From positions 868,001 to 932,000 of the forward strand of contig AP018697.1 in the NCBI GenBank assembly GCA_004001285.1: 64,000 nt of DNA, read 5' to 3'. Positions within the stretch are counted from its first letter, which is position 1. Each line of letters begins with the position of its first letter. Positions 4,146 to 17,009 of this stretch are shown here, piece after piece. The notes under the pieces were generated by a model, which was not told the DNA's origin, did no database searches, and was given only the letters and a program-made list of their open reading frames with translations. Both the position numbers and the translations under genes were made by a program. This DNA is from Arthrobacter sp. MN05-02. GTDB taxonomy: Bacteria; Actinomycetota; Actinomycetes; Actinomycetales; Micrococcaceae.

Positions 4146-5885
4146 GTGACTTCCACCGTCAACCCCGAGGTCGACTCGGCCGTCGACGCCACGTCCGGGC
4201 TCTCCGCCGATCAGCTCGCCGAGCGCATGCAGGATCCCGCCTGGTGGCGCCAGGCCGCCGTCTACCAGATCTACCCGCGCAGCTTCGCGGACTCCAACGG
4301 TGACGGCATCGGTGACCTGAAGGGCATCACGTCCCGGATCCCGTACCTCAGGTCACTGGGCGTCGACGCCGTCTGGCTGAGCCCGTTCTACCCCTCCGCG
4401 CTCGCCGACGGCGGGTACGACGTGGACGACTACCGCGACGTCGATCCCAAGCTCGGCACGCTCGAGGACTTCGACGAGATGGTGGCCGCGCTGCACGAGG
4501 CAGGCATCAAGCTCATCGCCGACATCGTCCCCAACCACACCTCCGACCGGCACGCCTGGTTCCGGGAGGCGCTGGCATCGCCGAAGGGGTCGGCCGCGCG
4601 GAACCGCTACATCTTCCGCGACGGCAAGGGCCCGGACGGCGACGAGCCACCCTCGGACTGGGACTCCGTGTTCGGCGGACCCGCGTGGGAGCGGACGACG
4701 GACGGCCAGTGGTACATGCACATCTTCGCGAAGGAACAGCCCGACCTGAACTGGGACAACCGCGAGGTGCGCGACGACTTCCTGAAGACCCTGCGCTTCT
4801 GGTCCGACCGCGGTGTCGACGGTTTCCGCGTCGACGTGGCCCACGCCCTCACCAAGGACATGACCGAACCCCTGCCCTCGAAGGCCGAGCTCGGCGCCGA
4901 GGACGAGAACCACAACGGCCGACACCCGTTCTGGGACCGCGACGAGGTGCACGAGGTCTTCGCCGAATGGCGTGCGGTGTTCAACGAGTACACGCCGCCG
5001 CGGACGGCCGTGGCCGAGGCCTGGGTCCATGCCGAGCGCCGCGCCCGCTACGCCAGCCCGGAAGGGCTCGGCCAGGCGTTCAACTTCGACCTCCTCAAGG
5101 CCGACTGGAACCCGGGCCAGTTCCGCGACATCATCACCAGGAACCTCGTCGAGGCGACATCATCCGGCGCGTCGTCGACCTGGGTGTTCTCCAACCACGA
5201 CGTCGTCCGCCACGCCACGCGCTACGGGCTCCCGCCGGCCGACCCGGACAGCAGGAGCAAGCCCGGGCAGGGCGGCCAGGGCGGCCAGGACGGATCGGCC
5301 TGGCTGCTGAGCGGTGGCACCGAGCCGGTCCTGGACCGCGAGCTCGGTGAACGCCGCGCCCGCGCCGTCACGCAGCTCATGCTGGCCCTGCCGGGCTCCG
5401 CCTATGTTTACCAGGGCGAGGAGCTCGGACTGCACGAGGTCGCCGACATCGCCGACGAGGACCGCCAGGACCCCACGTTCTTCCGCAACACGGGGGTCGA
5501 CGTCGGCCGCGACGGCTGCCGCGTGCCCCTGCCGTGGACCAGGGACGGCGAGTCCTTCGGCTTCGGGTTCGGCGGCGCGCACCTGCCGCAGCCGGAGTGG
5601 TTCGGCGACTACGCCGTCGAGGTGCAGGAGGGCGATCCGGCCTCCAACCTCAGCTTCTACCGCCGTGCCCTGGGACTGCGGCGCGAACTGCAGGGCGAGG
5701 AGGACTTCGACTGGGTGGACACGCCCTCCGCCGACGTCCTGCACTTCACGCGTCCCGGCGGATGGCACTGCATCACGAACTTCGGGTCGTCGCCGGTGGA
5801 CCTGCCCGCCGGCAGGGTCGTGCTGAGCAGCTCACCCCTGGTCGACGGTCGTCTGCCGGGGGACACGACGGCCTGGCTCGTCTAG
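4146..5885 (+). CDS. GH13 alpha-glucosidase (oligo-1,6-glucosidase type)
   Basis: This 579-residue intracellular enzyme hydrolyses alpha-glucosidic bonds of imported oligosaccharides. It has no signal peptide. GH13 regions are clear: WWRQAAVYQIYPRSFADSNGDGIGD at the start, ADIVPNHTSD, then DGFRVDVAHAL with nucleophile Asp230, VAEAWV with acid/base Glu291, and FSNHD with Asp352. The GTG at 4146 follows GAAAGGG. It closes the sugar ABC operon and a strong hairpin follows it. The insertion PGQGGQGGQDGSAW before the last third is a Gly/Gln-rich loop. Substrate (maltose, isomaltose, sucrose isomers) cannot be set from sequence alone. Confidence 0.93.
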   Translation: MTSTVNPEVDSAVDATSGLSADQLAERMQDPAWWRQAAVYQIYPRSFADSNGDGIGDLKGITSRIPYLRSLGVDAVWLSPFYPSALADGGYDVDDYRDVDPKLGTLEDFDEMVAALHEAGIKLIADIVPNHTSDRHAWFREALASPKGSAARNRYIFRDGKGPDGDEPPSDWDSVFGGPAWERTTDGQWYMHIFAKEQPDLNWDNREVRDDFLKTLRFWSDRGVDGFRVDVAHALTKDMTEPLPSKAELGAEDENHNGRHPFWDRDEVHEVFAEWRAVFNEYTPPRTAVAEAWVHAERRARYASPEGLGQAFNFDLLKADWNPGQFRDIITRNLVEATSSGASSTWVFSNHDVVRHATRYGLPPADPDSRSKPGQGGQGGQDGSAWLLSGGTEPVLDRELGERRARAVTQLMLALPGSAYVYQGEELGLHEVADIADEDRQDPTFFRNTGVDVGRDGCRVPLPWTRDGESFGFGFGGAHLPQPEWFGDYAVEVQEGDPASNLSFYRRALGLRRELQGEEDFDWVDTPSADVLHFTRPGGWHCITNFGSSPVDLPAGRVVLSSSPLVDGRLPGDTTAWLV

Positions 5886-5897
5886 CACCTGCCTCCC

Positions 5898-5930
5898 GAC
5901 GGCGGGCGCCCCCAGGGGGGGCCCGCCGTC
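5898..5930 (+). terminator. Terminator of the alpha-glucosidase operon
   Basis: A GC-rich hairpin has left arm GACGGCGGGC and right arm GCCCGCCGTC, with C-run against G-run pairing towards the loop. It sits 13 bp after the stop codon and is followed by gtcgtt rather than a long U-tract, which is common in high-GC actinobacteria. Confidence 0.75.
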
Positions 5931-6102
5931 GTCGTTCCCATCTGCCACGGGGCCCGGCTGCGGCTTCGTGCACGCGCTTCGACGCCGGAGGCTCGTGTCG
6001 CGGCAGGACACGCCGCCGGAACGGGGCGGAGCGGTCGGACCGCGTGCACGAACCCGCACCGCGACGCGGCAGCGCCAGGGCGTTCGTCCGCAGGAGAATC
6101 GG

Positions 6103-6132
6103 TTGCGGCTCCCTTCCTCCCGTCGGAATACT
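6103..6132 (+). promoter_or_regulatory. Weak promoter candidate for the DUF1992 gene
   Basis: TTGCGG (6103-6108) and AATACT (6127-6132) are separated by 18 bp. The expected transcript start, near 6139, would give a leader of about 30 nt before an ATC codon at 6169. Confidence 0.3.
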
Positions 6133-6168
6133 TGAAGGACCGGCACGAGCGAGGCGGAGGGCAGCGGC

Positions 6169-6792
6169 ATCAGCGGGTCCCAGGAGCACGAGGAGAGGCT
6201 GCGCAAGGCGGCCCAGTACCGGGCTGCCCGGAGTGGCGGGGGCGATGCGAACGATGCACTGGCCGAGCTGGAACGCCAGAACGACGACGGCGACGCGCCG
6301 AACGGCGAGATGGCCCCGCTGCGCACGGGGGAGGACGAAGTCAGGCGGGCACGCCTCATCGTCGACCGGGCAGTGGCGCGCGGAGAATTCGACGACCTGG
6401 CTCTTGCCGGCAAGCCGATCCCCGGCCTGGGGGAGGCACACGATCCGGACTGGTGGGTCAAGGGACTCATCCAGCGCGAGAACATCACCGGGCTCGGACC
6501 GCGGGCCATCCTGCTGCGCACGGAGGACGCGGAGCTCGACGACCGCCTCGACCGCCAGTACACCGAGCGGCAGGTGCGCGAGGTCCTCGAGGACTTCAAC
6601 TACCGCGTCATTGACGCGAGGCGCCAGCTCCTCGGCGGGCCTCCCGTCATCACGAAACTGCGCGACGTCGACGTCGAGGTGGAGCGGTGGCGCGAACGCC
6701 GGGTGGCAGCGCGCCTGGCAGCGGAGGCGGCCGCGCCGCCGGAACCGCAGAAGGCCTCCTTCTGGCGGCGCATCTGGCGCGGCTCCCGCTGA
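6169..6792 (+). CDS. DUF1992 (DnaJ homologue C28-like) protein, possible ATC start
   Basis: The conserved DUF1992 core is evident: RLIVDRAVARGEFDDLALAGKPIPGL, then DPDWWVKGLIQREN. The family has no firmly known bacterial function. The first ATG in frame is at 6310, but coding-like sequence (EEHEERLRKAAQYRAARSGG style, GC-rich third positions) continues upstream to a stop at 6133-6135 with no ATG, GTG or TTG. An ATC at 6169 lies 8 bp after GGAGG (6156-6160), so I place the start there. That gives 207 residues; a start at 6310 would give 160. A base error (ATG read as ATC) is an equally simple explanation. The C-terminus KASFWRRIWRGSR is basic. Confidence 0.7.
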   Translation: MSGSQEHEERLRKAAQYRAARSGGGDANDALAELERQNDDGDAPNGEMAPLRTGEDEVRRARLIVDRAVARGEFDDLALAGKPIPGLGEAHDPDWWVKGLIQRENITGLGPRAILLRTEDAELDDRLDRQYTERQVREVLEDFNYRVIDARRQLLGGPPVITKLRDVDVEVERWRERRVAARLAAEAAAPPEPQKASFWRRIWRGSR

Positions 6793-6801
6793 ACCGCGTC
6801 C

Positions 6802-6903
6802 GGCCGGCGCGGGCGCCGCTTCCGATCAGACCGGCGGCCGGTGCGGGCGCCGCTTCCGATCAGACCGGCGGCCGGCGCGGACGCCGCTTCCAATCAGCCC
6901 GGA
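6802..6903. repeat. Three tandem copies of a 34-bp repeat
   Basis: Units start at 6802, 6836 and 6870. Each reads GGCCGG(C/T)GCGG(G/A)CGCCGC followed by TTCC(G/A)ATCAG and a CCGG end. Copies 1 and 2 differ at one base; copy 3 carries a few changes. The array fills the gap between two convergent genes, so it may affect transcript ends or simply be slippage. Confidence 0.85.
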
Positions 6904-6935
6904 CGACGGCAGACCCGCCCGACGGCGCACCCGGC

Positions 6936-6964
6936 ATCCCCGGGGCCGTCGCATGGCCGGGGAT
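6936..6964. terminator. Weak hairpin between convergent genes
   Basis: ATCCCCGG (6936-6943) pairs with CCGGGGAT (6957-6964) around a 13-nt loop. It lies between the DUF1992 gene and the end of the GH65 gene and could terminate either. There is no U-tract beyond two T's on the plus strand. Confidence 0.35.
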
Positions 6965-7005
6965 TTCCCAGCCGGGCTATGCGATGGCGCGCTGCAGGAG
7001 TGCCG

Positions 7006-9486
7006 TCAGGACCCCACGGTGACTGTGGGCATCGACGCCGTCACCAGCGTGCCGTCCGCCCGTCGGGTCCCCTCGATGTCACTCGTCGTCGGAGTGCCGG
7101 TCAGGCGCGGACCCTGGTGGCTGAGCTGGACGGTGACCGGGCTGCCGGCCTCGACGTGCACGACCTGGCTCCGGACGGAGACCGTCGCGCTCCCACCTGA
7201 CTCGACCGTCAGGGTCATGGCATGCTGGGTGACCTCCGCGCGCAGGCGCGTTCCGTGCAGGGTCACCCGGAAACTCATGCGGGTCCAGCCCTCGGGGAGG
7301 CGCGGATCGAAGGTGATCCGGCCGCCGTGGTCGCGCATGCCACCGAACCCGTAGGTGAGGGCACTCCACACGCCACCGGTCGATGCGACGTGGATACCGT
7401 CCGAGGTGTTGCGGTGCAGATCGGCGAGGTCCACGAACAAGGCGGACCGGAAATACCTCATCGCGAGGTCCTGGTACCCGACCTCCGCGGCGATGATCGA
7501 CTGGACCACGGCGGAGAGGGTCGAGTCCCCTGTCGTCAGGGCCTCGTAGTACTCGAAGTCGGCACGCTTCTGTTCCGCGGTGAACTCATGGCCCTGCAGG
7601 AGGAGCGCGAGGACGACGTCGGCCTGCTTGAGGACCTGGAAGCGGTAGATCACCAGCGGGTGGTAGTGCAGCAGCAGGGGCCGCTTGCTCGCGGGTGTGT
7701 TCTCGAGGTCCCACAGTTCCTTCTCCAGGAATGCGGCGTCCTGCGGGTGGATGCCCGCGCGCTCGTCGAAGGGGATGTGCATCTTCTCGGCGGCGAGCGA
7801 CCACTCGAAGATCTCGTCCTCGGACAGGTGCAGGCGCGCGACCATCCGCTCGTAGGCGACGGGATCGTCGGCCCGCAGCGACTCGACGGAACGCGTCGCC
7901 GCCTTGAGGTTGGCGCGCGCCATGACGTTCGTATAGAGGTTGTCGTTGACGACGGTCGTGTACTCGTCGGGTCCCGTGACGCCGTGGATGTGGAAATTGT
8001 CGTCGCCGTTGCTGCGCCAGAAGCCCAGGTCGGCCCACATCCGCGCGGTCTCGACGAGGATGTCGATCGCTCCGCGGATCAGGAAGTCCTCGTCGCCCGT
8101 CGCGGCGACGTACTGCATGAGTGCGTGGGAGATGTCGGCGTCGATGTGGTACTGCGCGGTGCTTGCGGCGTAGTAGGCCGAGGATTCCTGACCGTTGATC
8201 GTGCGCCAGGGGAACAGCGCCCCGCGCTGATTGAGTTCGGCCGCCCGCGAGCGTGCCGGCTCGAGCATGGCCTGGCGGAAGCGGAGGGCGTTCCGTGCGA
8301 CGAGGGGGGCGGTGTAGCTGAGGAAGGGGAGGACGTAGACCTCGGTGTCCCAGAAGTAGTGGCCTCCGTAGCCGGAGCCGGACACGCCCTTGGCCGCGAT
8401 GCCGCCGCCGTCCGTGCGGGCCGTGGCCTGCGCGAGCTGGAAGATGTTCCAGCGCACGGCCTGCTGGATGGCGGGTTGGCCTTCCACCTCGACGTCGGAG
8501 CGCGACCAGAAGTCGGCCAGCCATTCCCGCTGCATCCGGTACTGCTGCTCGAGGGGGATCTCGCGCACGCGGTCGAGCGTGCGCTCACAGCGGTCGGCCA
8601 GTTCACGGACGGGCACGCCGCGGGAGGTGTGGTACGTCATGGTCTTGACGAGCCGGATGGGCCGGCCGGGCATCGCCTTCACGCGGTAGACGTGCTTGGC
8701 GAGGTCGTCCTCGATGTGCGACCGCTGGTCCCACTCGTTGTCCGTGACGAGCTCGTGTTCGACGCCGCAGGCCAGGGTCATCGACGAGTTGGTGGTGCGG
8801 TAGCCGAGCAGGTAGCGGGAACCGTCGACGCGCTTGAGCCGTGGCTGGAGCACCCGGTCCTTGAACGCATCCGCCTTGCGCGGGTCGAAGGACGTGTTCT
8901 CCGCGACGGGGTTCACCTGGTCCTTATCGACGCCGTCCTGGCGGTTGAGGATCTGGCTCGAGATGAGGATGGACGCCTCGGCGTCCAGCATCTCCACCTC
9001 GTAGTCGACGACGGCCAGGTGGCGGTCCGTGAACGAGACGAGGCGGCGTGTCCGGACGAGGACGCGCTTGCCGGAGGGCGTGCGCCATTCGAGCTCGCGC
9101 ACCAGGAGGCCGTCGGAGAAACCGAGCCGCCGCGAGTAGCGCAGGATGTCGGCCTCCGTCAGGACGAACGGCTCGTCGTCGACGTACAGGCGGATGATCC
9201 TCGCGTCGGGGACGTTGACGATCGTCTGTCCGACGCGGGCGAAACCGAAGGCCTCCTCCGCGTGCTGGATGGGCCAGGTCTCGTGGAAGCCGTTGATAAA
9301 GGTGCCGTAGTGGTACCCGTCCCTGCCCTCGTCCACGTTGCCGCGGAGGCCGAGGTAGCCGTTGCCGACGGTGAACAGCGTCTCGGTACGGCCCTGGAGG
9401 GCGACGTCGAATTCCGTCTCGACGAGTGCCCACTCGTCCACGGGGAAGTGGTTGCGGTCCAGTGGATCGGAGGTGATGAGATTCAT
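7006..9486 (-). CDS. GH65 disaccharide phosphorylase (maltose/trehalose/kojibiose type)
   Basis: This 826-residue cytoplasmic enzyme belongs to GH65, whose members split alpha-linked disaccharides with phosphate to give beta-glucose 1-phosphate and glucose. The N-terminal beta-sandwich starts with DEWALVETEFDV and TLFTVGNGYLGLRGN. The catalytic barrel holds GHYFWDTEVY and IHGVTGPDEY, with general acid Glu508. The ATG at 9486 follows AGGAAT by a few bases and lies 14 bp after the stop of the beta-phosphoglucomutase gene. That partner converts beta-glucose 1-phosphate, supporting a phosphorylase rather than a hydrolase. The exact disaccharide is not resolvable here. Confidence 0.92.
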   Translation of the reverse strand: MNLITSDPLDRNHFPVDEWALVETEFDVALQGRTETLFTVGNGYLGLRGNVDEGRDGYHYGTFINGFHETWPIQHAEEAFGFARVGQTIVNVPDARIIRLYVDDEPFVLTEADILRYSRRLGFSDGLLVRELEWRTPSGKRVLVRTRRLVSFTDRHLAVVDYEVEMLDAEASILISSQILNRQDGVDKDQVNPVAENTSFDPRKADAFKDRVLQPRLKRVDGSRYLLGYRTTNSSMTLACGVEHELVTDNEWDQRSHIEDDLAKHVYRVKAMPGRPIRLVKTMTYHTSRGVPVRELADRCERTLDRVREIPLEQQYRMQREWLADFWSRSDVEVEGQPAIQQAVRWNIFQLAQATARTDGGGIAAKGVSGSGYGGHYFWDTEVYVLPFLSYTAPLVARNALRFRQAMLEPARSRAAELNQRGALFPWRTINGQESSAYYAASTAQYHIDADISHALMQYVAATGDEDFLIRGAIDILVETARMWADLGFWRSNGDDNFHIHGVTGPDEYTTVVNDNLYTNVMARANLKAATRSVESLRADDPVAYERMVARLHLSEDEIFEWSLAAEKMHIPFDERAGIHPQDAAFLEKELWDLENTPASKRPLLLHYHPLVIYRFQVLKQADVVLALLLQGHEFTAEQKRADFEYYEALTTGDSTLSAVVQSIIAAEVGYQDLAMRYFRSALFVDLADLHRNTSDGIHVASTGGVWSALTYGFGGMRDHGGRITFDPRLPEGWTRMSFRVTLHGTRLRAEVTQHAMTLTVESGGSATVSVRSQVVHVEAGSPVTVQLSHQGPRLTGTPTTSDIEGTRRADGTLVTASMPTVTVGS

Positions 9487-9500
9487 GAGGGGATTCCTGG

Positions 9501-10280
9501 TCAGGAGGGATGCGCGCCCGGGGCGGCGGTGGCCGGCCGGGCAGGGAGGAAGGGGAGGAGTGCGGCGAGGTCGTCGACGACGGTGTCGGCACCATGGGCG
9601 AGGAGGGTCTCGGCGCCGACGCCCCGGTCGACCCCGACGACGAGGCCGAACCCGCCCGCCCGACCGGCGGCGACCCCGGAGTGTGCATCCTCGACCACCG
9701 CGCACGCCGAGGCGGGAAGGCCGAGCAGATCGGCGGCGTAGAGGTAGGTGTCGGGAGCGGGTTTGCCGGCGATCTCCCGGTCGGCCGCGAGGACGCCGTC
9801 GACGACGACGTCGAAGCGGTCGCGGAGCCCGGCGGACTTGAGGACGGGGACGCCGTTGCGGGAGCTCGTGACGACGGCGACGGAGACGCCGGCGGCGATG
9901 GCCGCATCGAGGAATGCGAGGGACCCCGGATAGGGAGCGACCCCGTCCTCTTCCAGGGTCTCGTTGAAGGCCCGGTTCTTGCGGTTGCCGAGTCCGCAGA
10001 CGGTCTCGAACTCGGGCGGGTCCCCGGGGAGGCCCTCGGGCAGCCTGATGCCGCGGGACGCCAGGAGCGCACGAACGCCGTCGTAGCGGGGGCGTCCGTC
10101 GATGGAGGTGAAGTAGTCCGCGTCGGTGTAGCCCTCCACGTCCTTCTCCGCCAGGTAGGGGGTGAACAGCCGCGACCACGCCTGCATGTGCACCTCGGCG
10201 GTCGGGGTGAGCACGCCGTCGAGGTCGAACAGCAGCGCTCCGAGGGACGACAGGCGTGCCGGGGTGGGGTGGGGGGTCAT
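9501..10280 (-). CDS. pgmB: Beta-phosphoglucomutase (HAD superfamily)
   Basis: The enzyme isomerises beta-glucose 1-phosphate to glucose 6-phosphate. The HAD nucleophile motif is LFDLDGVLT, followed by VVTSSRN (motif II), GKPAPDTYLYAA (motif III Lys) and VVEDAHSGVAAG (motif IV). The ATG at 10280 is preceded by GAAGG at 5 bp and gives 259 residues, near the family length. In-frame ATGs further up at 10319 and 10337 lack a binding site. The gene is co-oriented with and 14 bp from the GH65 gene, and the two steps are consecutive in disaccharide phosphorolysis. Confidence 0.9.
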   Translation of the reverse strand: MTPHPTPARLSSLGALLFDLDGVLTPTAEVHMQAWSRLFTPYLAEKDVEGYTDADYFTSIDGRPRYDGVRALLASRGIRLPEGLPGDPPEFETVCGLGNRKNRAFNETLEEDGVAPYPGSLAFLDAAIAAGVSVAVVTSSRNGVPVLKSAGLRDRFDVVVDGVLAADREIAGKPAPDTYLYAADLLGLPASACAVVEDAHSGVAAGRAGGFGLVVGVDRGVGAETLLAHGADTVVDDLAALLPFLPARPATAAPGAHPS

Positions 10281-10488
10281 GAAGCCTTCGGGGGTGGTGC
10301 GGTGGCCGTGAATGGACATCACGGTGCGGATCGACATCGGTGGCGTTGGTGCGACGTCGTCCTGGAGCCGGTGAGGATGTCCGAGGAAGCGGGCCGGCCG
10401 GACGGGGTCGTCGACGGCGAGACCAGAACTGGGACGAGCGGCCCTGGAGGACCCTCATGATCCTGCAGCGGTGCTGCGGACCTCCTCC

Positions 10489-10494
10489 AGTCTA
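10489..10494 (-). promoter_or_regulatory. Possible -10 (TAGACT) for the pgmB-GH65 operon
   Basis: TAGACT on the minus strand lies about 210 bp before the pgmB start. TAG-N-CT hexamers recur before several genes here. No convincing -35 is visible. The 284 bp between pgmB and the terminator at 10565 hold no supportable gene. Confidence 0.3.
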
Positions 10495-10564
10495 CCGGTA
10501 CGAACGGTCCTGCGGGATCCACGAGGGGCTGGACCGGCGCACATCCTGCTGTCGACCTCACGAC

Positions 10565-10605
10565 CCTCCGCCCGGCCGGGGAGTCGTCCGCCGACCGGGC
10601 GGAGG
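10565..10605 (-). terminator. Terminator of the GT2/OpgC operon
   Basis: CCTCCGCCCGG (10565-10575) and CCGGGCGGAGG (10595-10605) form a perfect 11-bp stem with a 19-nt loop. It lies 5 bp past the stop codon of the acyltransferase fusion on the minus strand. Confidence 0.7.
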
Positions 10606-10609
10606 CTGG

Positions 10610-13201
10610 TCAGTTCGGGATGATCCCGAACAGGACCCTCCGCTTCACCAGAACCCAGATGACGAGGGTCACGACGGCGTGGATGAGGAGCCCCTGCCAG
10701 GCGCTCGTGCGGTCGAGGCCCGGGATGTTCGCCACCGCGAGGACGAAGAACACGTGAAGGATGAAGACGTACAGGCTCGCGCGCCCGAGCGGGACGTACA
10801 GCCAGCCCGTCAGCGTGTTGATGGGGCGCCAGAACGCGGTCAGGATCACGTACGCGGCAAGGATGAGGAAGGCCAGGTTCAGGAGCCTGCCGGGCTGCAG
10901 GAACACTCGCACGTACGCGGACTCGTACAGGGTCTCGTAGAAGCCGGCCGGGACGAACGGAAGACCGAGCTCCAGCGTGTAGTTCAGCCAGAGGGTCCCG
11001 AGCACCAGGGCGTACGTGCCGGTGACGGCGCCCACCAGGATCTTCCCGCGACGGGTGCTGAGGGCGTCGATGATCGAGCGGCGGTGGTAGCCGAGGACGA
11101 CGCCGTGGACGAAGATCACCTGCCAGGTCAGCAGGGGGAAGACGTCCTGGAACTGCGAGTTCAGGACCCGCAGGGAGAACACCGCGTCGACCGCGTAGAG
11201 CGCCCAGCTGACGGACAGCACCAGCCACCACAGCTTCTTCCGCAGCAGCAGGACCAGCAGGGGAACCGTCAGCGTCAGCACGACGTAGAGGCCCATGATG
11301 TTGAAGGCCCACGGCCCCATGTTCAGGAGCAGCAGGTCCCGCACCGCGTAGGCGGGCGGCGGATAGTCGAACAGTCGTGCGACGTTCGGGTAGAGGTCGT
11401 ACACGCGCCCCGCAGCATCTGTTCCCGCCTCGCCTGTTCCACGGTCCGTGAAGGTGGTCAGCACCGACGCGTCGATGAACGGCACCAGGGAGAGCAGGTA
11501 GACGGTGATGACCACGGCCAGGGCCGTGACGTAGAGCTTCACCGCCCGCCGGGTGGTGCTCCTGGCGGCCGCGCCGGCCCCGCGTCGCCGGACGGCGACG
11601 GGGTGCACCATTCCGAGGACGACGCCGGAGAGCAGGACGAAGAGTTCCGCCCCGGTGATCGTCCCGATGAGATTGCGCGAGATGAAGGACCAGGGTCCGG
11701 CGACCTCGATATGGGTGACGACCACCGAGGTGATGATCCAGCCACGCAGCAGGTCGATGCGGGTGTCCCGGGGAGCGTGCTCGTCCGGACACCGCCAGTG
11801 CGGGACGACGCGCCGTGCTGCTCCGGCCAGCAGGACCAGGGCGAAGAGCCCGACGACGCAGGCGACCAGCCAGCCCATCACGGCGCTGACCGGGGCACCC
11901 GCCTGCCACACCTGCCGGGTCGATTCGTTCGCGTCCGACTGGTCGACCACCGGGATGACCGGCCCCAGCCGCACACCCGGCGCTGCGTCGAGGGTGTCGC
12001 GCAACGCCGCCGTCGTCGCCTCGTCCGCGCTCAGCCTCCAGTCCACGGTGTGGCCCTGCGCTTCCGGCTCCTGTCGCTCGGCCTCGAGCCAGGACACCAT
12101 GCCGATCTCCGGGTACTGCGCAGCGATTGCCGGGTCGAACAGCTGGTCGAGCCAGGCGCGCTTGATGTCCGCTTCGGGGGCGCTGTCGGCATCTTCGGGA
12201 TCGTACAGCGCGGCGGTCTGGACGAGGAACCGCTTGCCGTTCGCTGCGGCGTACTCCTTCGCGAAGTCGATACGCGGAGCCCCCGGGGCCGCGCCGTAGA
12301 TGCCGGCGAGCTGGTCGGCGAACTTGTCCGGTTCCGGGAGCACGGACGTGGTGATCGCGCCGGAGTACTCGCGCGTCCCGTCTGCGTTCGTGGTGGCGCC
12401 CTGCTCGTAGCTGCCGAAGTGGTACATGGACAGGCCCACCCAGTCGACGGCGCCGTCGCCCGGGTAGTACGGCGCGTACGGGTCGTCCGCGCCGTCGATC
12501 AGGCCGTTGCCGTTCGTGTCGAGAGCGGTCACGGCGCCGGACTCGAGGCCCTCCACGGCGCCGTACGCCTCGGTGAAGGGGTAACCGGCCGCGTACGACG
12601 GCGCCCAGACCATGGCGGCGGTCGGCAGCTCGGAGTGGACGACGCCCGCGAGGGTCTGGAAGGCGTCGACGTACGCGTCGGGCTGCTGGCCCCAGCTGTG
12701 CCAGGTGCCGTTCATCTCGGGTGCGAAGCGGAGGAAGAAGGCGGTGCGAAACTCGCTGCTGATGCGGCCGAGGGTGTCGGCGAGGCGCCCGGCGTCGTCG
12801 CCGGTCAGCTCGTCGAGCGGCTTCGACGGCTCGAGGGTGACGACGGCGACGGCACCGAGGGGTGCCTCCTGCCGCGCGAGGTCGAACAGGTCGCGCTCCG
12901 CCGTGGCGTCGAGCGGGTAGGGGATCGGGCGGCTGAAGAACGACGGCGTCGTCCCGGTGCGGTCGGCGTAGGCGCGCGCGTCGTCGGCGGACCAGTCGAG
13001 CTCCGGGCCGAAGTACCGCCCCTCGGCGAGGGCCGCCGGGTCGTCGATCGGCGCGGACTCGCTGTCCGCAGTGGTCGCGGGCAGGCCGGCGGCGTCGGCG
13101 TGCGCGGGCAGGCCTCCGGCCAGGAACCCCAGCACCAGTGCCATCATCAGGACCGGGCGGGTCAGCGAACGCTGCTTCCGGCTCCGGGCGGCGGCTGTCA
13201 C
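10610..13201 (-). CDS. Secreted GH26-like domain fused to OpgC-type membrane acyltransferase
   Basis: The GTG at 13201 overlaps the GT2 stop by 4 bp (GTGA) and gives 863 residues. Residues 15-36 are a signal segment ending AHA-DA. Residues 60-405 resemble a GH26 mannanase-like barrel: RFAPEMNGTWHSWG carries the expected acid/base Glu162, and VDWVGLSMYHFG follows. The strand that should carry the nucleophile Glu reads FLVQTA, with Gln328, so hydrolysis is doubtful. DTNGNGLIDGAD (228-239) looks like a calcium-binding loop. One helix (about 440-462) precedes an OpgC-like domain (RIDLLRGWI, about 10 helices) to the end. OpgC proteins succinylate glucans. Joint acylation of a polysaccharide made by the neighbouring GT2 is inferred. 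Confidence 0.8.
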   Translation of the reverse strand: MTAAARSRKQRSLTRPVLMMALVLGFLAGGLPAHADAAGLPATTADSESAPIDDPAALAEGRYFGPELDWSADDARAYADRTGTTPSFFSRPIPYPLDATAERDLFDLARQEAPLGAVAVVTLEPSKPLDELTGDDAGRLADTLGRISSEFRTAFFLRFAPEMNGTWHSWGQQPDAYVDAFQTLAGVVHSELPTAAMVWAPSYAAGYPFTEAYGAVEGLESGAVTALDTNGNGLIDGADDPYAPYYPGDGAVDWVGLSMYHFGSYEQGATTNADGTREYSGAITTSVLPEPDKFADQLAGIYGAAPGAPRIDFAKEYAAANGKRFLVQTAALYDPEDADSAPEADIKRAWLDQLFDPAIAAQYPEIGMVSWLEAERQEPEAQGHTVDWRLSADEATTAALRDTLDAAPGVRLGPVIPVVDQSDANESTRQVWQAGAPVSAVMGWLVACVVGLFALVLLAGAARRVVPHWRCPDEHAPRDTRIDLLRGWIITSVVVTHIEVAGPWSFISRNLIGTITGAELFVLLSGVVLGMVHPVAVRRRGAGAAARSTTRRAVKLYVTALAVVITVYLLSLVPFIDASVLTTFTDRGTGEAGTDAAGRVYDLYPNVARLFDYPPPAYAVRDLLLLNMGPWAFNIMGLYVVLTLTVPLLVLLLRKKLWWLVLSVSWALYAVDAVFSLRVLNSQFQDVFPLLTWQVIFVHGVVLGYHRRSIIDALSTRRGKILVGAVTGTYALVLGTLWLNYTLELGLPFVPAGFYETLYESAYVRVFLQPGRLLNLAFLILAAYVILTAFWRPINTLTGWLYVPLGRASLYVFILHVFFVLAVANIPGLDRTSAWQGLLIHAVVTLVIWVLVKRRVLFGIIPN

Positions 13202-15270
13202 TCCTTCGCTTCCTGGCGGGCCTTCGCGGTGGCGATGTCCGACTGGTAGTGCTCGTATCCCCGGTAGCGGACGGCTTCGATGATGACACTGAAGATGACG
13301 AGGTCGAAGAGCACCCAGACGATGTTGACGGACGTCCCCAGGATGTCCGCCTGTCCCACGGCCATCCGGATGATGCCGATGATCGCCGCCGCCACGAGCA
13401 GCCCCATGGCCCACAGCTGCGGTTTCACGAGGTCCCACCGCAACTGGTTGTCCTGCTGCAGGGTCTTCGGCGTCACGGCGAAGTCGAGGCTTCTGCCCAG
13501 ATAGACGTTGCCGAACGCCGAGGTGATCGAACGGATCCAGATGGGGAACAGCGCGAGCGAGTACTGCTGCCCACGCCAGGTCTTCACGCCCTTGCCGACG
13601 ACGGCGAACAGCAACTGGTTGACCAGGAGGAACGGGATGAGCCGCAGGAAGAACTCGGTGCTGATGGAGTCGACCGGGAGGATGCCGAAGATCAGGTAGA
13701 TGATGGGCGCGGCGATGTAGACGACCGCGGCGAAGCCGGAGAGGTAGCTCCACATGGTCGCCGCGTACATGAGTCGCTGGGCGATCGAGAGGCCTTTCTG
13801 GGCGAACGGGTTCTCGCGGAACATCACCTGGATGGTGCCCTGGGCCCAGCGGAGCCGCTGGGTCAGCATGGAGTTGAGGTCCTCGGGAGCGAGTCCGTCG
13901 GCGAGTTTCTCGTGGTGGTAGGCCGTCTCCCAGCCGAGGCCGTGGAGGCGCATGCAGGTCGCCATGTCCTCGGTCACCGAGATGGTCGCCATGGGCATGA
14001 CGGCCTGCGCCTCGCCGCCGCGGTCGGCGTTGACCGATTCGATGAGGAGGCGGACGGCGTCGATCGCAGCCAGCGGCGACCAGGACCGCTGGGCGAGCTG
14101 GTCGAGCGCGCCGGCGTCGACGACGGCGAGGCCGGGGGTGCCCGACGACGTGCCCGGCGCCCCCGCGTCGAGGCCCTCGATGCCGAGTTCCTCGAGGGAG
14201 GCGAGATCCTCGTGGAGCGCAGCCATGTCGGCGGACACGAGGTCGCGGCTGACCTGTTCCACGCGCTGCTGGAACTCGTAGGTCACCTCGGAGATACCGT
14301 GCCCCTTCTGGAGCCTGCGGCGCACCCGGCGCAGGTCCTTCGCCACGAGATCCAGGGCCTCCGCCATCCGCTGGTTGTCGCCGTCGAGGCCCTTCTTGGC
14401 CTTCGCGATCACCCGGTCGGCGGTCTTGAGCGCACGGTTCAGGGAGAGTTCGATCTCCGTCACGTAGCGCGTGACACCGAGCTGCATGAGTGCCTCACGC
14501 CGGATGAGGGCGTTCGAGCCGCAGAAGAACGCCGCGTTCCACCCGTCCTTGCCCTGCTGGATGGGGCCGTAGAAGAGCGGCGCCTGGCTTGCCAGGGGAT
14601 CGGACTCCGGCACGTTGATGAAGACCTGCGGGGTCTGGACCAGCGCCATCCTGTCGTTGGTGAAGTACCCGAGAGTCTTGTCCAGGATGAGCGGGTCGGG
14701 GATCTGGTCCGCGTCGAGGATCAGGAGGAACTCGCCGTCCGTGGAGGCCAGCGCGTTGTTGAGGTTGCCGGCCTTCGCGTGCCGCGGCATGTCCTTCCAG
14801 TCCGCGGACCGGGTGATCCAGCCGATCCCCTCGGCCTCGGCCGCTGCCCGCACCTCGGCCCGGTTGCCGTCGTCGAGGATCCACGTCCTGTGCGGGTAGC
14901 GGATGGCCTTGGCGGCCCGGGCGGTGGTGAGGACGAGGTCCAGCGGCTCGTTGTAGGTGGTGATGAAGACGTCCACGGTGAGGCCGGCGGGGGCTTCAGG
15001 GGCGCTGCGCTTCTTGAGCTTCCACACCGTGAAGCCGAACAGGAGGGAGTCCACGAGTGAATAGGTCTCGGCCAGCACCAGGGGGATGGCGATCCACCAG
15101 GCGTCCCAGTTGATGGAGTACAGCCACCGCCACACCACGTAGTTGAGGCCGAGGACGGCCGTCACGAGCACGATGGCCCGGATCAGCAGCGTCCGGCCGC
15201 CGGACGAGGCTTCCCGCTGACGGGTCCCACCACTGTCTGCGGTCGGATCGTTCGGTGACAGTGTCGCCAT
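13198..15270 (-). CDS. Cellulose-synthase-like GT2 membrane glycosyltransferase with large insertion
   Basis: This 690-residue processive synthase polymerises sugars at the membrane. Two N-terminal helices (27-50, 58-80) precede the GT-A domain: TTYNEP, ILDDGN (Asp133/134), DADQIPDP (Asp186, Asp188), TED at 433-435 and QRLRW at 471-475. Several C-terminal helices follow from about 490. Between RREAL (257-261) and TED about 170 residues occur, where the family normally has 12-15. The extra part (about 270-425) is rich in Lys, Arg, Glu and Leu and looks like a helical coiled coil. No PilZ domain is visible. The gene is coupled by a 4-bp overlap to the GH26/OpgC fusion. The polymer is unknown. 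Confidence 0.88.
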   Translation of the reverse strand: MATLSPNDPTADSGGTRQREASSGGRTLLIRAIVLVTAVLGLNYVVWRWLYSINWDAWWIAIPLVLAETYSLVDSLLFGFTVWKLKKRSAPEAPAGLTVDVFITTYNEPLDLVLTTARAAKAIRYPHRTWILDDGNRAEVRAAAEAEGIGWITRSADWKDMPRHAKAGNLNNALASTDGEFLLILDADQIPDPLILDKTLGYFTNDRMALVQTPQVFINVPESDPLASQAPLFYGPIQQGKDGWNAAFFCGSNALIRREALMQLGVTRYVTEIELSLNRALKTADRVIAKAKKGLDGDNQRMAEALDLVAKDLRRVRRRLQKGHGISEVTYEFQQRVEQVSRDLVSADMAALHEDLASLEELGIEGLDAGAPGTSSGTPGLAVVDAGALDQLAQRSWSPLAAIDAVRLLIESVNADRGGEAQAVMPMATISVTEDMATCMRLHGLGWETAYHHEKLADGLAPEDLNSMLTQRLRWAQGTIQVMFRENPFAQKGLSIAQRLMYAATMWSYLSGFAAVVYIAAPIIYLIFGILPVDSISTEFFLRLIPFLLVNQLLFAVVGKGVKTWRGQQYSLALFPIWIRSITSAFGNVYLGRSLDFAVTPKTLQQDNQLRWDLVKPQLWAMGLLVAAAIIGIIRMAVGQADILGTSVNIVWVLFDLVIFSVIIEAVRYRGYEHYQSDIATAKARQEAKE

Positions 15271-15517
15271 CGGCCCAGCACGCTCCACTTCTGTTCTCGG
15301 TCTGCCTGATCGGTGCTTCGGTGGTGCACGTGCGCCGGATCGGCGTATGCGCAGGACATCCCGCCCCGAGGGACCACGAAGCCAGCATCCAACGTACCCG
15401 AGGGAACGCCTCAGGAGGCGCCCACGGGCAGGCTGCGGCAATACTGAGCAATATCTGCGCGCGCGGGCCGGTTCCGGCAGTGATCCCTGCAGGGGCCCGG
15501 GCCGCAGGGGAGCGGCG

Positions 15518-16204
15518 TCAGCCCATCTCGGCGTAGCGTTCGGCCTGCCCGAGCGCCTCGCGCATGCCGTCGGCGTCGTGCACCGTGCCGTACCCCGGGG
15601 TGTCGCGCTGGAAGCGCCAGCCCTCCGCGAGGGATCCTGCGTCCACGGCGTCGAAGCCGAACTCGTCGAGGAGCTCGACGACGGCCTGCTTGGCGTCGGA
15701 GTCGTCACCCGCGATCGGCAGGGCGCGGCGGTGCGGCGTGCCGGCGGGTGTGCCGTCCGTGGTCAGCTGGGCGGCGGAGATGTTGTTGAAGACCTTCACC
15801 ACCGAGGACCCCGGGAGGTGACGCTGCACGAGCTCGCTCGTGGTCGTGGTCTCGTCGTCGAGCTCCGCGATCCGGCCGTCACGGGACGGGTAGTAGTTGC
15901 AGGTGTCGATGACCAGCTTCCCGGCGAGCGGCTCCACGGGGACCGAGCCGATGTCCTTGAGCGGGATGGTGACCACGACGACGTCGCCCTCCCGCGCGGC
16001 GGCGTCGACGGTCCCGGCACGCGCGGCATCGCCGAGTTCGCGGACGAGGTCCTGCAGCGTCTCCGGGCCCCGCGAGTTGCTCATCACCACGCGGTAGCCC
16101 CTGGCGACAGCCAGGCGTGCGAGCTGCGAGCCGATGTGGCCGCTGCCGATGAATCCGATGGTGCTGCGCGGGGCGCCGGTCCGGGCTGTCGTGTTCTCCC
16201 TCAT
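15518..16204 (-). CDS. NADP-binding (F420-dependent oxidoreductase type) protein
   Basis: This 228-residue protein has an N-terminal Rossmann fold with TIGFIGSGHIGSQLARLAV, then VVMSNSRGPE and VVVVTIPLKD, typical of the coenzyme F420-dependent NADP oxidoreductase family. The C-terminal part is short. Members reduce NADP with F420 or act as uncharacterised reductases. The ATG at 16204 has GGGGAGG 11 bp upstream; a GTG at 16213 is only 2 bp from it. It stands alone downstream of the CitB-type regulator, and no F420 biosynthesis gene is present here. Confidence 0.8.
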   Translation of the reverse strand: MRENTTARTGAPRSTIGFIGSGHIGSQLARLAVARGYRVVMSNSRGPETLQDLVRELGDAARAGTVDAAAREGDVVVVTIPLKDIGSVPVEPLAGKLVIDTCNYYPSRDGRIAELDDETTTTSELVQRHLPGSSVVKVFNNISAAQLTTDGTPAGTPHRRALPIAGDDSDAKQAVVELLDEFGFDAVDAGSLAEGWRFQRDTPGYGTVHDADGMREALGQAERYAEMG

Positions 16205-16238
16205 GCCCAGCACAACCTCCCCGACCCGGAGATATTCC

Positions 16239-17009
16239 TCAGCCGCGCGGCGCCCCGTCGGTCCAGACGTAGAACTTCTCCGGCCGCCCGGCCGATCCGT
16301 ACTGCGGCACGATCCTCGCCTGGCCCCGGGACACCAGGAATTCGAGGTAGCGCCGTGCGCTGACGCGGGCCATGCCGAGCCTGTCGGCGACGTCGGAGGC
16401 CGAGGTGCCGCGGCCCTGGTCGCGCAGGTCCCTCATCACCGCGTCGAGCGTCGGCGCCGAGAGGCCCTTCGGAGTCGTGATCGTGGCGGTGGCCGCACTG
16501 CCGCCGCCGCCCGGTGCCGTCGTCCGGAGGAGCTGGTCGATCCGGCCCTGGTCCAGTGCTGCGGACCCGTCCGCCGCATGGTCGTCGAGGTCGCCGCGGT
16601 ACGCGACGTAGGAGTCCAGGCGCTGGTTCAGCACGGCAGCACTGAACGGCTTCACGAGGTAGTGCAGAACACCGCCGGCCACCGCGGCGCGCACGGTCTC
16701 GAGTTCGCGGGCGGCCGTGATCGCGATGACGTCGACGGGGTCGCCCGGCCGGTTGCGCAGCGCACGGAGCACCTCGATGCCCGTCATGTCCGGCAGGTGG
16801 ATGTCCAGCAGCACGAGCCGCGGCCTCAGCTCGCCGGCGAGTTCCAGTGCGCGGGCACCGGTGTGCGCGGTCCCGACGACCTCGAACGCGCCGTGGGCGA
16901 GCAGGAATCCGGTGTGGATCCCGGCGACCTGGTGGTCGTCGTCCACCACCAGGGTGGGGATCAGGGGCTGCTTCCTGCGCCGTGCGGCCGAGGGAGTCGC
17001 GCCGGTCAT
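16239..17009 (-). CDS. Response regulator, CitB/DctR family
   Basis: The 256-residue regulator has a receiver domain (residues 17-130): VVDDDHQVAG acidic pocket, LVLLDIHLPDMTG with phospho-acceptor Asp69, and HYLVKPF with the conserved Lys. After a Gly/Ala linker, the C-terminal helix-turn-helix (TSASDVADRLGMARVSARRYLEF) matches CitB/DcuR regulators. Its start overlaps the kinase stop (ATGA). The pair lies divergent to tctCBA, so it most likely activates tricarboxylate uptake. Confidence 0.9.
   Translation of the reverse strand: MTGATPSAARRRKQPLIPTLVVDDDHQVAGIHTGFLLAHGAFEVVGTAHTGARALELAGELRPRLVLLDIHLPDMTGIEVLRALRNRPGDPVDVIAITAARELETVRAAVAGGVLHYLVKPFSAAVLNQRLDSYVAYRGDLDDHAADGSAALDQGRIDQLLRTTAPGGGGSAATATITTPKGLSAPTLDAVMRDLRDQGRGTSASDVADRLGMARVSARRYLEFLVSRGQARIVPQYGSAGRPEKFYVWTDGAPRG

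Follow-up and report, generated by a model that had tools for sequence, protein, structure and literature searches.

A GT2 synthase and a GH26-OpgC fusion protein that look like the core of a surface-polysaccharide system in many actinobacteria

In the 64,000-nucleotide stretch of the Arthrobacter sp. MN05-02 genome analysed here (the window), two overlapping genes encode a processive glycosyltransferase of family GT2 and a secreted protein in which a GH26-like glycoside hydrolase domain is fused to an OpgC acyltransferase (hereafter the fusion). In many actinobacteria these two proteins seem to make up the core of a surface-polysaccharide system built around a synthase, and in most relatives the genes for a SpoIIE-type PP2C phosphatase, a STAS protein and an RsbW-like ATPase (the trio) accompany that for the GT2. 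We propose that the synthase makes a beta-glucan, that the lichenase-derived acyltransferase holds and acylates the chain at the membrane, and that the trio switches synthesis in most relatives; as a whole, this reading seems to us evenly balanced between right and wrong.

Genomic distribution of the pair

Our neighbourhood counts come from 80 named GT2 loci, which are the best 80 of 523 confirmed relatives and lean to close kin. The fusion lies near the GT2 in 45 of them, spanning eight named genera, with a GH26 of the fusion type in 47 and any GH26 in 62. The regulators are likewise found near the GT2 (STAS in 68, RsbW-like ATPase in 68, PP2C phosphatase in 59), and fusion, STAS, RsbW and PP2C occur together in 31 of the 80. 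For the 67 loci with more than 5.5 kb on both sides the counts are 41 for the fusion, 43 for fusion-type GH26, 55 for any GH26, 57 each for STAS and RsbW-like proteins and 50 for PP2C. Apart from these five named clusters, none appears in more than 18 of the 80 neighbourhoods (minor clusters are unnamed).

The order PP2C-GT2-STAS-RsbW-fusion is seen in locus L086, where Pfam confirms the SpoIIE phosphatase, STAS and HATPase_c_2 proteins (phosphatases are also confirmed in L047 and L048), and it recurs in Nocardioides, Clavibacter, Aeromicrobium and Frigoribacterium. In Gordonia, Rhodococcus, Williamsia and Dietzia a canonical GH26 gene stands upstream in place of the fusion, and in Kocuria (L182, L204) the fusion is divergent from the GT2. 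Neighbour types cluster on the GT2 tree, which was built from the 80 named loci and 6 of 32 earlier GT2 loci: they need 14 changes, where shuffled types need 31.3 on average, a difference to which near-copies add. As an aside, Arthrobacter agilis strain 4041 has two GT2-fusion loci of different lineages (L128, L175).

Among 149 Micrococcaceae genomes, our own included, the GT2 (E up to 1e-40) is present in 26, P0002-like proteins in 21 and both in 20. G121 has a P0002-like GH26 without a GT2, while in six genomes (G018, G035, G047, G066, G111 and G141) there is a GT2 but no P0002-like match, G018 having an adjacent canonical GH26 that the search missed (L089). All ten full-length fusions in these genomes are found in GT2-bearing ones (hypergeometric P 4.9e-9, uncorrected for kinship). 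In samples across the phylum (396 genomes, two candidates scored per genome, so that all counts are lower bounds), both the GT2 and the fusion were found in our own genome and G361 only, and a standalone GH26 in G509. The preliminary description of this DNA had joined the two genes into one system and named a pair private to this genome as grounds against it; the pair is conserved elsewhere, and both the neighbourhood and the Micrococcaceae counts indicate that GT2 and fusion belong together. It had also placed synthesis, binding or trimming, and acylation in two polypeptides; these two are not the whole system, for most of the 80 loci have the trio beside the GT2, and in the Arthrobacter sp. 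MN05-02 genome the trio stands elsewhere.

Not all of the distribution favours our proposal. No fusion is nearby in 35 of the 80 GT2 loci, and no GH26 in 18 (in 13 of the 80 one flank is shorter than 5.5 kb). Arthrobacter sp. SX1312 (L131) retains a window-type GT2 with no fusion nearby, and is thus a natural half-pair variant. Several Micrococcaceae (L040-L045) have the fusion and the GT2 apart in the genome.

The partner-switching trio and the GT2 insertion

The acceptor serine of the STAS proteins is part of a DSS motif kept in 67 of 67, and the RsbW-like proteins have the N-box Asn and His and the GRG motif in 65 of 65, with the G1-box Asp in 58 of 65. A STAS protein of this type (E up to 1e-12) is present in 26 of 26 GT2-bearing Micrococcaceae genomes as against 4 of the 123 others. 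In most relatives, the phosphatase, STAS protein and RsbW-like ATPase would switch synthesis, and we lean toward the view that the trio controls the synthase there; that it does so through direct contact is a more tentative idea, which we rather doubt.

The window GT2 has an insertion of roughly 165 residues, and 76 of the 80 relatives have one of 164-188 residues, the search pattern having failed in the other 4. The structure model of the GT2 is weak overall (predicted local distance difference test score, pLDDT, 61.4), and only the insertion helices were used from it: three long helices at residues 254-293, 300-321 and 326-348, with block confidence of 65-87 over residues 271-350 and lower at the start. 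The insertion changes faster than the enzyme as a whole (ratios of nonsynonymous to synonymous substitution rates, dN/dS, of 0.20 and 0.33 versus 0.14 and 0.16), which weighs against our proposal.

Classical partner switching ends on sigma factors. The alternative that survives best is that the trio acts on transcription, for example via a sigma factor, and never on the synthase, the GT2 insertion having some other role; this is a serious possibility, which we place a little short of even. The classical outcome (treated in PMC8256260) speaks for it, as does the full insertion kept without a local trio by the window-type GT2s and that of L105. Set against this, no companion sigma factor is conserved near the GT2 in the clustering of the 80 neighbourhoods, which leaves minor clusters unnamed and did not extend to the genomes at large, and regulators are nearby in none of the three loci whose GT2 has a shorter gap (127 residues; L051, L053) or no insertion (L114). 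The four GT2-less genomes with this STAS protein again favour action on transcription over control of the synthase: three have the whole trio with no GT2 nearby and the fourth has STAS and RsbW only. Since the trio occurs without a nearby GT2, which speaks against a strict link between the two, it may have another output than the GT2. A phosphatase-STAS-RsbW trio without a nearby GT2 was noted at L206, L207 and L208, in three genomes of one genus (g4).

The window's GT2 belongs to a clade of 11 GT2 rows (Shimodaira-Hasegawa-like approximate likelihood ratio test 100), and at none of its loci is the GT2 accompanied by a nearby STAS or RsbW match. In our own genome the trio is located at G000:C1 about 2.8065-2.8085 Mb (L123), 1.9 Mb from the pair, in an operon without its GT2. 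L091 and L186 share synteny with this locus and have the GT2 between phosphatase and STAS; we looked for a GT2 in L123 and its counterparts L124 and L125, and found none in these three loci. The STAS, RsbW, receiver and phosphatase parts of the three are under purifying selection among three species (dN/dS 0.03-0.20).

In the window genome, the trio would thus act on the synthase, if at all, from a remote locus, and here several facts sit uneasily with our proposal. The trio of this genome groups with a GT2 lineage other than that of the window's GT2, its RsbW-like ATPase, as read from the sequence, seems to have no G1-box Asp (58 of 65 relatives have one), and its receiver-phosphatase gene (L123:5526-6681, G000:C1 about 2.8065-2.8077 Mb) is split over two frames in the assembly. 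That gene is a single frame in L124 and L125, and the split is either a sequencing error or recent decay, the two being indistinguishable. Because the trio groups with another GT2 lineage, the simplest story is that the native GT2 was lost from the operon and that a different GT2-fusion pair is present elsewhere in the genome. A bolder combination, which we consider unlikely, is that the trio gates the GT2 directly via the helical insertion, replacing PilZ and cyclic di-GMP (c-di-GMP), that a glycosidase fold without its nucleophile holds the acceptor for the acyltransferase, and that the window lineage is a natural swap in which the trio was kept and another synthase-acyltransferase pair works in trans.

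The GT2 synthase and its polymer

The GT2 had been described as processive, with an insertion and with D,D, DxD, TED and QRLRW motifs, and the observation is confirmed: D, DxD, TED, QxxRW and FxVTxK (here FAVTPK) are all kept, and the solved structures in the PDB that match best carry the name cellulose synthase catalytic subunit (E about 7e-67). The protein is very probably a processive beta-glycan synthase. Its score against the NCBIfam cellulose synthase model TIGR03030 is 345.9 bits, below the equivalog cut-off of 699.1. Pfam gave no PilZ match in the window GT2, and PilZ is present in 1 of 16 aligned GT2s, by sequence most likely the insertion-less L114 (alignment A2 has 16 proteins, including one with a run of X from L108; A3 has 15). 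In the tree, the GT2 of Arthrobacter agilis UMCV2 is the nearest named relative, 97% identical across 649 columns. A search for a second GT2 of the window kind in our own genome gave merely one 30-bit match. The second GT2 copy of G006 (L105:7418-9370) looks degenerate, its QxxRW stretch being missing in the alignment; the L048 copy has QxxRW.

The synthase would polymerise a uridine diphosphate (UDP)-sugar, most likely UDP-glucose, and export the growing polymer through a channel that it forms itself in the membrane. The probable product is a beta-glucan in which some linkages are beta-1,3, for example a (1,3;1,4)-beta-glucan, a guess made because the associated hydrolases are akin to lichenase. 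The preliminary description presented polymer and acyl group as inference, and for both we infer likewise. That the polymer is a glucan appears probable; that it has mixed linkage is plausible, if slightly less so than the contrary, and it counts against our proposal that the argument rests on hydrolase kinship.

A polymer other than glucan, such as a beta-mannan or another GT2 product, which the GH26 ancestor would reflect, is rather improbable. The sugar is not fixed by the GT2 sequence, the TIGR03030 score is far under its cut-off, and mannanases are numerous among the named GH26 structures, all of which would suit such a polymer; the canonical GH26 of the G050 locus, however, is far nearer lichenase (4.6e-50) than mannanases (at best 6.7e-11), which weakens the equation of GH26 with mannanase, and in structural comparison the fusion leans to lichenase as well.

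The GH26-OpgC fusion

The secreted GH26-like domain fused to OpgC, as first described, is confirmed by fold and by PF10129. Fold comparison places a GH26 (beta/alpha)8 fold in the N-terminal domain, with lichenase and beta-1,3-xylanases as the closest folds, while the Pfam GH26 model PF02156 scores 13.6 bits, below its cut-off of 20.2; OpgC (PF10129) scores 185.6 bits, above its cut-off of 21.4. PF10129 is present, by precomputed annotation, in 116 of the 120 listed homologues of the GH26 region (246 found). A PDB sequence search with the fusion returned a polyhedrin as its sole match (E 0.67), which we set aside as a chance match.

Glu162 of the window fusion aligns with the acid/base of the lichenase CtLic26A, and Gln328 stands at the nucleophile position in place of Glu, where we take the CtLic26A Glu residues to be assigned to these two roles. 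Glutamine cannot act as the nucleophile in the retaining GH26 mechanism. Our residue counts cover the 43 fusions and 15 canonical GH26 proteins clustered by the gene caller, of 45 and 18 loci found by tblastn. The acid/base Glu is present in 39 of the 43 fusions, the nucleophile-position Glu in 19 and both in 16; elsewhere the nucleophile position holds Gln (window and close Arthrobacter relatives) or Asp, Arg, Ala or Ser. The 15 canonical standalone proteins near the GT2 all have both Glu. In a separate cluster of five standalone GH26 proteins from the 80 loci four have both and one has Gln, and the 24 standalone proteins from other loci comprise 19 with both, 3 that are cut short and 2 with Gln or Val. 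Seven fusions that are not beside a window-type GT2 or come from L047 include one with both. In all 38 aligned fusions (alignment A1, the window protein plus 37 of the 120 listed homologues) a Pro precedes the acid/base; standalone proteins mostly have His there.

Because both catalytic Glu are present in only 16 of 43 fusions and the window has Gln328, binding is likelier than trimming as the role of the GH26 domain; of the earlier suggestion of binding or trimming outside the cell, the first half thus fares better. We are fairly confident that the domain is non-hydrolytic in the window species. Held outside by the transmembrane helix, it would bind the emerging chain at its exit without cutting and present it to the OpgC domain, which would move a short acyl group, perhaps succinyl, from coenzyme A across the membrane onto the chain.

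In cellulose operons, trimming or release of the chain is commonly ascribed to the hydrolases. The GH26 domain could similarly be an active endo-glycanase, trimming or releasing the polymer, while the acyltransferase acts independently, which we think improbable. The GH26 fold, the frequent acid/base Glu and the intact standalone proteins would agree with such an enzyme, and the fusions with both Glu or with the nucleophile-position Glu weigh against binding as a general rule, so that some of them may hydrolyse; the substitutions at the nucleophile position and the invariant Pro before the acid/base point away from it.

It is quite likely that the fusion acylates the same polymer that the GT2 makes. 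That OpgC instead acylates another surface glycan, for which GH26 is a docking module, with the GT2 link being shared regulation only, would fit the loci without a nearby fusion and the Micrococcaceae with the two genes apart, but is the least probable alternative given the 4-bp gene overlap in the window, adjacency in 45 of 80 loci with differing gene orders, and the confinement of full-length fusions to GT2-bearing genomes.

The DxxR motif of the TmAT superfamily (D483, R486) and H497 are invariant in the 38 aligned fusions, and H497 may be catalytic. D228 and D239 of an EF-hand-like loop are also invariant in the 38, and the loop may bind calcium.

Further observations concern related genes. 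In Arthrobacter sp. RIT-PI-e (L134:12070-14654) the gene calls divide GH26 and OpgC between two successive genes. An 80% identical fusion, P0015, is recorded under Vibrio cholerae and is most likely a mislabelled or contaminated record. Our own genome has further standalone GH26-like genes at G000:C1:3119549-3120538, 237293-238267, 201050-201751 and C2:8537-9530; the two fully read have both Glu, and the 201050 and C2 genes look split or cut in the gene calls.

Relation to known systems

The window GT2 resembles the BcsA cellulose synthase (TIGR03030; PDB 7lby, 4hg6, 4p00) in its core with D, DxD, TED, QxxRW and FxVTxK, and differs from it in having no detected PilZ, in the insertion of 164-188 residues before TED, and in a score below the equivalog cut-off. 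No search was aimed at BcsB of BcsA systems, and beyond the five named families none exceeds the 18 of 80 neighbourhoods given above. RiGT2 of Romboutsia ilealis and BgsA of Sinorhizobium meliloti, (1,3;1,4)-beta-glucan synthases (PMC10374906), are processive GT2 enzymes like that of the window, where the hydrolase kin point to the same linkage type. RiGT2 needs its PilZ domain for activity, unlike the window GT2 with no PilZ match; BgsA has no PilZ domain and binds c-di-GMP through its C-terminal peptide, and the absence of PilZ in the window GT2 is therefore not unique (same source). The words "acyl" and "GH26" do not occur in the accessible text of that paper.

Compared with the lichenase CtLic26A (PDB 2bv9, 2cit) and the GH26 beta-1,3-xylanases (2ddx, 7xjr), the window protein has lost the nucleophile Glu and has a Pro before the acid/base, an EF-hand-like loop and membrane attachment through OpgC. 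The OpgC/MdoC succinyltransferase (PF10129), the AT3-SGNH proteins OafB and OatA, and HGSNAT are TmAT-type acyltransferases with DxxR, as is the fusion, and an extra helix positions the extracytoplasmic domain in AT3-SGNH/TmAT proteins as the linking helix would here (accessible parts of PMC9558356, PMC9833829, PMC12423673). In contrast to AT3-SGNH proteins, the outer domain of the fusion is an N-terminal GH26 fold; the available portions of the reviews PMC9558356 and PMC9833829 treat AT3 fusions to SGNH or alanine racemase domains and name no GH26 fusion. Database labels for single proteins read "OpgC domain-containing" at NCBI and "GH26 domain-containing" in UniRef (P0118).

Partner switching has been tied to polysaccharide genes in SypA/SypE of Vibrio fischeri and HmpU/V/W of Nostoc, with the STAS-glycosyltransferase protein all4160 in Anabaena; in these, as in the trio, phosphatase, STAS and serine-kinase proteins are tied to polysaccharide (PMC8256260, accessible part). 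The trio differs in sharing one operon with a single processive GT2, often together with a GH26-OpgC fusion. The Actinoplanes wps-1 locus has a GH26 within a Wzx/Wzy cluster, according to the available part of PMC13390465, and was rejected as a different system. We found no description of a GH26-OpgC fusion or of a PP2C-GT2-STAS-RsbW operon in the open papers covered (most subscription journals lie outside the search); the parts are of known kinds, and the combination of GT2, GH26-OpgC fusion and trio is apparently undescribed in the open literature. If our proposal is correct, an acylated beta-glucan system that is so far undescribed, and under a control other than the usual PilZ/c-di-GMP, is common to many actinobacteria, including genera from soil, from the phyllosphere and from plants, and the system would offer a test case both for the role of extracytoplasmic domains in AT3/OpgC acyltransferases and for the switching of PilZ-less processive synthases.

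Gene layout and source genome

Feature coordinates are collected in Table 1. The window genome is 3.64 Mb in two contigs. Gene calls came from a simple codon-score script, with some starts wrong, and a first clustering merged unrelated members into c0. The overlap by which the two genes had been paired is present as GTGA. The hairpin behind the fusion gene, earlier called a strong terminator, is indeed strong (z -4.46), yet has no U tract. An Rfam scan of window positions 9500-16500 gave no match.

Table 1. Features of the GT2-fusion locus (window coordinates)
Feature	Position	Strand	Remark
Processive GT2, BcsA-like, 690 aa, no PilZ domain found	13198..15270	-	Best PDB chains named cellulose synthase catalytic subunit
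Insertion in GT2 at residues about 266-428, flanked by FFCGS and TED; weakly modelled as three long helices	13987..14475	-	
Secreted GH26-like domain fused to OpgC acyltransferase, 863 aa	10610..13201	-	
GH26-fold domain, residues about 55-415 of fusion	11957..13039	-	
Glu162 of fusion, aligned with GH26 acid/base	12716..12718	-	
Gln328 of fusion, aligned with GH26 nucleophile Glu	12218..12220	-	
EF-hand-like loop of fusion, residues 228-239, DTNGNGLIDGAD	12485..12520	-	
Linking transmembrane helix of fusion, residues 434-468	11798..11902	-	
OpgC_C domain of fusion, residues 478-852	10646..11770	-	D483, R486, H497 invariant in 38 aligned fusions
Stop/start overlap GTGA of GT2 and fusion genes, 4 bp	13198..13201	-	
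Hairpin 3' of fusion stop codon, 18 pairs, no U tract	10565..10605	-	

Upstream of the pair is a gene whose small product resembles NADP-binding oxidoreductases, and downstream of the pair, at window positions 4146-10337, are genes for GH13 glucosidase-like, GH65 phosphorylase-like and phosphomutase-like proteins, all named from their translations.
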